Assembly (NCBI RefSeq): GCF_900169485.1
Contig: NZ_LT821227.1
Location: 186,001 to 250,000 of the forward strand
Source: Phoenicibacter congonensis
GTDB taxonomy: Bacteria; Actinomycetota; Coriobacteriia; Coriobacteriales; Eggerthellaceae
DNA: 64,000 nt
Reading direction: 5' to 3'
How positions within the stretch are numbered: the first letter of the stretch is position 1; each line of letters starts with the position of its first letter. The notes under the pieces are model-generated. The model had not been told where the DNA came from. It saw nothing but the letters and a program-made list of their open reading frames with translations, and made no database searches. The translations under genes were made by a program, and so were the position numbers. This document shows, one piece after another, positions 59,262 to 59,975 of the stretch.

Positions 59262-59363
59262 AATATACTCCCCTTTACTATTTGGTCTGACTCTTACATA
59301 TTGTGGCAAGTTGTTCCTTAGTATACCATTTATTGAGTTTTAAAAACGCAAAAGAGAAATTTT

Positions 59364-59398
59364 TTGCATAATAACCGCACTATGCTATAATTTATAAT
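59364..59398 (+). promoter_or_regulatory. Promoter of the initiator tRNA
   Basis: TTGCAT (59364-59369) and TATAAT (59386-59391) at 16-base spacing, with a second TATAAT at 59393-59398. It is the best promoter in the window and lies about 30 bases before tRNA-fMet. Confidence 0.65.
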
Positions 59399-59419
59399 CC
59401 CAATAGGGACTAAATATAT

Positions 59420-59497
59420 TGCGGGGTGGAGCAGTCTGGTCAGCTCGCCGGGCTCATAACCCGGAGGTCGTTGGTTCAAATCCAGCCCCCGCGACCA
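59420..59497 (+). tRNA. Initiator tRNA-Met (anticodon CAT)
   Basis: A 78-base cloverleaf with anticodon arm CCGGG-CTCATAA-CCCGG. The three G-C pairs of GGG/CCC flanking the CAT loop mark an initiator tRNA. Position 1 is T and position 72 is G, so the first pair is weak, as expected. T arm GGTTCAAATCC and encoded CCA are present. A terminator follows 8 bases later. Confidence 0.95.
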
Positions 59498-59866
59498 AAA
59501 ACACCAAGGTCTTTGCAACATGCAAGGCCTTTTTTCTTTTGGGCTGGATTTGAACAATTTAAAAGTTTGTACCATGCTTCTTTTCGGCCTTCGCCTCAAA
59601 GAAGCCTTCTCGCTAAAAACGTGCCACAGGCACGTTTTTTTAACGCTCAAAGCCCGCGACCAAAAACACCAAGGTCTTTGCAACATGCAAGGCCTTTTTT
59701 CTTTTGGGCTGGATTTGAACAATTTAAAAGTTTGTACCATGCTTCTTTTCGGCCTTCGCCTCAAAGAAGCCTTCTCGCTAAAAACGTGCCACAGGCACGT
59801 TTTTTAACGCTCAAAGCCCGCGACCAAAAACACCTTGGTCTTTGCAACATGCAAGGCCTTTTTTCT
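59488..59866 (+). repeat. Tandem repeats (165 and 164 bp, plus a partial third) downstream of tRNA-fMet
   Basis: Units start with CCCGCGACCA, the last bases of the tRNA, at 59488, 59653 and 59817. Units 1 and 2 are near identical, differing by one T in a run; the third copy keeps about 50 bases. Each full unit holds a terminator, an exact 15-base reverse complement of the tRNA T-arm (59541-59555, 59706-59720), a stem GCTTCTTT/AAAGAAGC, and a second terminator AACGTGCC/GGCACGTT. Reading frames here are shadows. Confidence 0.92.
59506..59535 (+). terminator. Intrinsic terminator of the initiator tRNA (repeated)
   Basis: An 11-bp stem from AAGGTCTTTGCA and TGCAAGGCCTT with one bulge, loop ACA, and a TTTTT tail. 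The same element recurs at about 59671 and, shortened, at 59837. With the AACGTGCC hairpins at 59615 and 59780 there are five terminators in about 350 bases. Confidence 0.9.
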
Positions 59867-59975
59867 TGTACCTCAAACGGCGGCACTTCATTTGCTAAAC
59901 AATCTTAAAATATTACCAATATTGGGACTGCAAAAAGAAAACATGCTGGCATTCTTTCTTTAAAAAGGAGAAGCC

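Follow-up and report, generated by a model that had tools for sequence, protein, structure and literature searches.

Directly behind the initiator tRNA gene of Phoenicibacter congonensis lies a tandem array that is probably a variant of the tRNA-linked repeat (TLR) kind: a short, non-coding, hairpin-rich, REP-like element which lodged behind the tRNA, with locally copied arms, and was then duplicated in tandem. Behind this reading stand the architecture of the repeat units, the conservation of their core hairpin (hairpin C) across phyla together with its covariation and dispersal, the match between the antisense arm (A′) and its host gene, and the variation of unit number between sister species. 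The window, that is, the whole stretch of 64,000 nucleotides that was analysed, belongs to a complete genome of 1.448 Mb with 45 tRNA genes.

The gene for initiator tRNA-Met(CAU), here tRNA-fMet, was located by ARAGORN at 59420-59497 on the forward strand, which also carries all parts of the array, and is the sole match to this tRNA in its own genome. A promoter-like site, TTTGCA-17-TATAAT, was found 5′ of it at 59363-59391 (+) by consensus scan only. The array (59488-59867) starts inside the 3′ end of the tRNA gene and, according to TRF, has a period of 165, 2.3 copies, and 98% matches. Each unit opens with the last 10 nt of tRNA-fMet, CCCGCGACCA. Unit 1 has 165 bp (59488-59652; TRF and sequence comparison) and unit 2 has 164 bp (59653-59816), so that the first-pass annotation was right about both the unit lengths and their opening with the last bases of the tRNA. 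The two units are 100% identical across their first 153 nt (59488-59640 against 59653-59805), and the start-to-start distances are 165 and then 164. A partial third unit of 51 bp (59817-59867) contains the tRNA 3′-end copy and a terminator in which AAGG has become TTGG.

The order of parts is the same in each full unit: the last 10 nt of the tRNA, a terminator, the sequence GGGCTGGATTTGAAC, and two hairpins, the second of which is symmetrical and carries a T-run; a degenerate tRNA 3′ end then closes one unit and at the same time opens the next. The terminator is present at 59506-59535 (fold z -2.3), 59671-59700, and 59835-59864, and a terminator scan detects all three copies. Symmetrical hairpins lie around 59615-59641 and 59780-59805; counted together with the three U-run terminators, they justify the five terminators reported earlier. 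The hairpin GCTTCTTT...AAAGAAGC occupies 59576-59605 (fold z -3.9) and, as a second copy, 59741-59770. Hairpin C, with CTAAAAACGTGCCACAGGCACGTTTTTTTAACG at its centre, extends over 59597-59661 (60.2 bits, E 1.2e-13) and, one T shorter, over 59762-59825 (54.3 bits, E 4.8e-12) in the covariance model R1, which was built from 63 distinct sequences including the window copy, so the window's own score is partly built in. The degenerate 3′-end copy CTCAAAGCCCGCGACCA closes unit 1 at 59646-59662, and a like copy at 59810-59826 closes unit 2; the exact part of these copies is the last 10 nt only (59653-59662 and 59817-59826).

The sequence GGGCTGGATTTGAAC was found at 59541-59555 and, by sequence comparison, at 59706-59720. 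As had been claimed at first reading, it is in both full units a perfect reverse complement, 15 nt long, of the tRNA-fMet T-arm plus the start of the acceptor strand (59474-59488). None of 5000 dinucleotide shuffles of one unit gave such a match (maximum 12), and the best antisense match to tRNA-fMet elsewhere in the window is 11. Downstream of the other 44 tRNA genes of the same genome (300 nt each) the longest antisense match is 10, and none of these genes has a 3′-end copy or the hairpin. The antisense T-arm match exceeds chance and is unique among the 45 tRNA genes of this genome.

The unit was found nowhere else in its own genome, and the only other genome of the genus, a draft that is 84% complete, gave neither a match to tRNA-fMet nor the unit. 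For the WYL-type regulator downstream of the array, a search of the genome contigs returned no relatives. Two smaller observations concern other tRNA genes of the same genome. Behind tRNA-Glu(ttc) (L155, C1 around 145629-145700, minus strand), the sequence AACGGGAATC at +26, past the terminator, matches the 3′ region of this tRNA in antisense over 10 nt and is possibly a decayed unit of the window kind. A ACGCTGCAAATC-like motif lies 3′ of the terminators of tRNA-Arg(tct), tRNA-Cys, tRNA-Glu(ttc), tRNA-Ala(cgc), and tRNA-Gln(ctg) (L136, L143, L155, L165, and L171, respectively) and is perhaps another shared 3′-end element.

Several simple accounts of the array were rejected. Long open reading frames cover it on both strands, at 59330-59764 (-) and 59426-59908 (+), as the repeats are open in several frames; these frames arise as by-products of the repetition and do not merit annotation as genes. 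An origin as a site-specific integrative element, or from its attachment site, was dismissed, given units of 165 bp with neither integrase nor cargo between the copies of the tRNA end. A phage origin is unsupported: the matches listed from the phage and plasmid collections do not extend beyond the tRNA, and the exact pattern of hairpin C is absent from viral contigs. Above the gathering score, Rfam recognizes only tRNAs in the window, and only tRNAs and one TPP riboswitch in the related loci; at a loose threshold it gave chance matches only, around the palindrome of one related locus.

Relatives of the unit were found through its 3′ hairpin. When the unit was compared by BLAST with 138 genomes of the family, almost only this hairpin, CTAAAAACGTGCCACNGGCACGTTTTYTTAACG, was matched. 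Most of the matches adjoin tRNA genes and lie in units where the 3′ end of the neighbouring tRNA recurs and its T-arm is copied in antisense. The model R1 detected hairpin C in 66 of the 138 family genomes and in 28 of the 48 genera, with as many as 19 copies in one genome. Of 296 genomes drawn from across the phylum, only 5 gave a hit. The rarity in the wider sample shows that hairpin C is a specific dispersed element and not a generic terminator. An exact pattern scan of the collections, which understates diversity, gave 77 stretches from Collinsella, Eggerthellaceae, Oscillospiraceae, Lachnospiraceae, Christensenella, Neglectibacter, and Thalassospira. Hairpin C thus spans at least three bacterial phyla, including Coriobacteriia, several families of Clostridia, and Thalassospira. 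Many of the comparison loci come from metagenome-assembled genomes; the isolates with hairpin C belong to Collinsella, Neglectibacter, Pseudoflavonifractor, and Thalassospira.

Hairpin C often lies 50-105 nt 3′ of a tRNA or tmRNA gene, and the plan of the related units is the 3′ end of the gene, a terminator, an antisense arm matched to this gene, hairpins, and the 3′ end of the gene again. At the fMet site of another genus (L017), the parts follow the same order as in the window and R1 scores 34.5 bits; this match, like the BLAST search, is independent of the inclusion of the window copy in R1. Neglectibacter timonensis has three tandem units 3′ of tRNA-Lys. Similar units beside other tRNA genes, for which a search had been proposed in the first-pass annotation, are therefore many in related genomes, and none stands beside the other 44 genes of the genome itself.

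Hosts other than tRNA genes were seen as well. In L224 and L220 the hosts are tmRNA genes, with arms matched to the tmRNA T-arm. In four Lachnospiraceae metagenome-assembled genomes (L088, L114, L118, and L125), units with hairpin C contain a second copy of a protein gene's end, ...CAGTTCTCAAAGAGATAA or close to it; by eye the gene reads like rpsI. L125 also has the inverted arm, 3′ of the last terminator. In two Oscillibacter metagenome-assembled genomes (L061 and L106), the units are placed at palindromes that resemble parS, TGTTTCACGTGAAACA, of which they repeat one half. One further copy of hairpin C (L226, G052:C1:1136300-1138800) has an arm like that of the tRNA-Asp unit of the same genome (L225) and lies at a site without a tRNA; this copy away from any tRNA hints at movement.

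The structure of hairpin C was evaluated in the 63 aligned sequences. Its inner stem of 10 bp is almost invariant and its internal loop is conserved, with TA opposite CTTNAC, while the outer stem varies with compensation. The innermost variable pair of the outer stem, 16-50, is intact in all 63 sequences (GC in 38, CG in 20, AU in 3, GU or UG in 2). The covariation score is 0.265, against 0.083 for shuffles and at most 0.106 for slid controls, that is, three times the shuffles and 2.5 times the best slid control. In the subgroup that includes the window (CTCGC...ACGCTC), the outer pairs beyond 16-50 are not complementary. This pattern of substitutions indicates that the structure of hairpin C is kept, as RNA or as single-stranded DNA.

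Does the antisense arm follow the host? In the collected loci, hairpin C lies no more than 130 nt 3′ of 49 tRNA genes, which represent 42 distinct sequences and 21 types of anticodon; an antisense arm of at least 12 nt was present with 29 of the 42 distinct tRNA sequences. With its own tRNA, a site has a longest antisense match of 12.9 nt on average, against 8.3 nt when tRNAs and sites were paired by permutation (maximum 9.4; none of 300 as high). Even unusual T-arms are matched exactly: over 18 nt in a tRNA-Leu (L054), 19 nt in a tRNA-Arg (L044), and 25-27 nt in tRNA-Ser of Collinsella. To judge by these matches, the antisense arm is a local copy fitted to each host tRNA. The direct copies of the 3′ end cluster at 20-21 nt, with the cut in the T-loop between TTC and GAA, or at 16 nt, at the edge of the T-stem; most relatives with the hairpin C core have 3′-end copies of 16-21 nt, against 10 nt exact in the window.

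At an orthologous tRNA-Arg(acg) gene, two sister species have unequal numbers of units. One species (G135) has a single unit, made up of the tRNA, a terminator, the antisense arm, and a shortened hairpin; the other (G136) has the same parts and one full extra unit. Two other species of this genus have a terminator only, with differing downstream sequence. A clean empty site was not recovered in these comparisons, the best one being the sister with one truncated unit. Since the single unit of G135 has an arm and lacks a second tRNA end, it is tandem duplication that brings in the direct copy. As to the repeated integration or slippage at the tRNA 3′ end put forward in the first-pass annotation, repeated gain finds support in the kindred units behind many tRNAs and in the unequal unit number of G135 and G136. 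Plain slippage accounts for the tandem copying only and not for the unit, because the unit contains a dispersed hairpin element conserved across phyla.

The source of the movement was sought among Y1 (IS200/RAYT-type) transposases. They are present in 39 of the 66 genomes that carry hairpin C, and the association over the 138 genomes is not significant (Fisher p 0.09), so a Y1 transposase is unsupported as the mover. The own genome has eight Y1_Tnp (IS200/RAYT-like) matches, for example at C1:1351138-1351419 and C1:1399403-1399684. A′ might have arisen by simple snap-back copying at the terminator, but this is insufficient alone, since the spacers that flank the terminator are not complementary in L044 or L046.

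The unit can be written as A-T-A′-core, in which A is the tRNA 3′ end, T the terminator, A′ an inverted copy of the host T-arm, and the core the hairpins including hairpin C. Under the preferred reading, the element would spread as DNA to the 3′ ends of genes or to palindromes and would take up a copy of the local target in inverted orientation. The second unit of the window would be a recent tandem duplication, with which the identity across 153 nt agrees. The tRNA-fMet gene would remain whole, since its 3′ end and terminator are restored with each copy added. Most transcription should end at the first terminator and leave a normal tRNA, and the array would be mainly a set of stacked terminators and a passive passenger. 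Read-through transcripts may be cut at the repeated tRNA ends into a structured RNA of about 120-165 nt (compare RrB in E. coli), which is predicted to be closed by A′ and the 3′-end copy of its own unit; in a transcript that still holds the tRNA, the arm may pair with the T-arm instead (15 bp). Against this reading stand the negative search for a transposase or other mover, the single site in the own genome, the failure to recover a clean empty site, and the orientation of hairpin C, which is in the sense of the tRNA in the window but antisense in nearly all other tRNA-linked cases. We put forward more tentatively, and hold somewhat less probable than its opposite, the wider proposal that one family of tiny hairpin elements, spread over three phyla or more, moves to gene 3′ ends, those of structural-RNA genes among them, and writes inverted and direct copies of the target end beside a conserved hairpin by an undescribed mechanism, the E. 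coli TLRs being its enterobacterial relatives.

The units could also be small-RNA genes of the RrA/RrB/RrF type: tRNA transcription would run past the first terminator, and cleavage at the repeats of the tRNA 3′ end would yield a structured RNA able to bind a protein or further RNAs. Such a case is known from E. coli, where polymerase passing T1 transcribes the TLRs of rrnA, rrnB, and rrnD; processing leaves RNA ends close to the end of 5S and to its repeat, and the products associate with Hfq and CsrA (PMC8144298). The window has a like layout of terminators and repeated 3′ end. The unit RNA is predicted to close through A′ and its own 3′-end copy (GGGCU/AGCCC and UUUGA/UCAAA) with a free GCGACCA tail; this fold beats shuffles (z -3.3), and hairpin C covaries. 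However, hairpin C is in the sense of the tRNA only in the window and L040 and is antisense in the other 40 of 42 tRNA-linked cases, so no single transcript is conserved. The hosts vary as well (tRNAs, tmRNA, ends of protein genes), the exact 3′-end copy of the window is only 10 nt, and no function of TLRs was known before the work on the rRNA-linked ones (PMC8144298). We consider this explanation rather unlikely.

An RNA that pairs with the tRNA precursor, as suggested in the first-pass annotation, may form according to the folding predictions. Control in cis by such pairing, in which the arm of a read-through transcript would seize the T-arm of the tRNA-fMet precursor and misfold it, so that aberrant precursors are eliminated or held back, is not favoured and appears very improbable to us. 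The predicted fold of tRNA-fMet plus a unit does contain the full 15-bp helix of A′ with the T-arm (-95 kcal/mol, z -5.9), and the arms fit the host tRNA across loci. But a terminator lies between tRNA and arm, A′ pairs with the end of its own unit too, and insertion or template switching would leave behind an inverted copy of the same appearance. Moreover, in several loci the arm has decayed while the direct 3′-end copy can remain exact, for example in L039, where the longest antisense match is 6.

Plain local duplication, that is, slippage at the terminator palindrome which gives first an inverted and then a direct copy without any mobile element, is equally hard to credit: the two nearly identical units are those expected of a recent tandem duplication, and the long palindrome around the terminator is a natural site for strand switching, but the core hairpin common to several phyla with up to 19 copies per genome, and the like order of parts at more than 20 tRNA types, would be left unexplained.

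The TLR architecture is now seen beside tRNA genes of many gut Coriobacteriia and Clostridia, with a covarying hairpin and a host-matched arm. Hairpin C provides a model for searches, a large number of natural replicates, and a clear way to test mobility against a function as RNA, and the array shows that repeats can grow on an essential single-copy initiator tRNA gene without breaking the tRNA. The TLR kind itself is already known and unexplained; the combination of a cross-phylum core with a locally matched arm was not found in accessible papers or Rfam.

Among known systems, REP elements resemble hairpin C as dispersed intergenic hairpins with many copies per genome. Hairpin C differs from REP/RAYT systems in its tie to gene 3′ ends with local arms and in the lack of a significant link with Y1 transposases; the GTAG-type tetranucleotide foot is absent at hairpin C, whose alignment is flanked by CTA...CTTNACG. 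The RrA, RrB, and RrF sRNAs share with the window a sequence between two terminators, bounded by the repeated 3′ end of the upstream RNA gene. Their host is 5S rRNA, and expression has been shown for the E. coli RNAs. The rtT RNA and the 178-bp repeats of tyrT (RF00391) are likewise tandem units of ~170 bp with a tRNA 3′ end and an antisense arm; their core differs from that of the window, the RF00391 model has no match in the own genome, and R1 has none in the E. coli tyrT locus.

The closest comparison is with the TLRs of E. coli. To our knowledge, these have been known for more than 40 years (since 1978), with no agreed origin or function. There are 22 units at 10 loci (PMC8144298, citing Egan & Landy 1978 and Rudd 1999), each repeating the last 18-19 bp of the tRNA or rRNA gene that precedes it (PMC8144298). 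The classic TLRs (lysV, argVYZQ, and tyrTV) carry an antisense T-arm; the accessible papers mention neither such an arm nor members outside enterobacteria, a weak absence. In E. coli K-12, lysV (L243) is followed by a terminator, then by an antisense arm of 13 nt at +50 and a direct copy of 18 nt at +138. In the tyrT/tyrV locus (L135), the arm of tyrV lies at +59, with 10 nt exact and an imperfect match across some 22 nt, and its 3′-end copy of 19 nt lies at +159; argV (L240, argVYZQ) has an 8-nt arm, GGGAGGAT, recognized by eye, and a 19-nt copy at +115. Downstream of rrfB the antisense match never exceeds 6 nt. Like the window array, TLRs lie directly 3′ of a tRNA or rRNA gene and have 3′-end repeats, GC-rich hairpins, and tandem copies. 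They differ in the exact 3′-end copy (18-19 against 10 nt), in core sequence, and in the host, which in the window is a single initiator tRNA gene. Because of the shorter copy and the different core, we file the window array as a TLR variant and not as a strict member. The lysV TLR has its parts in the same order as the window unit, and by analogy the window array would work like a TLR.
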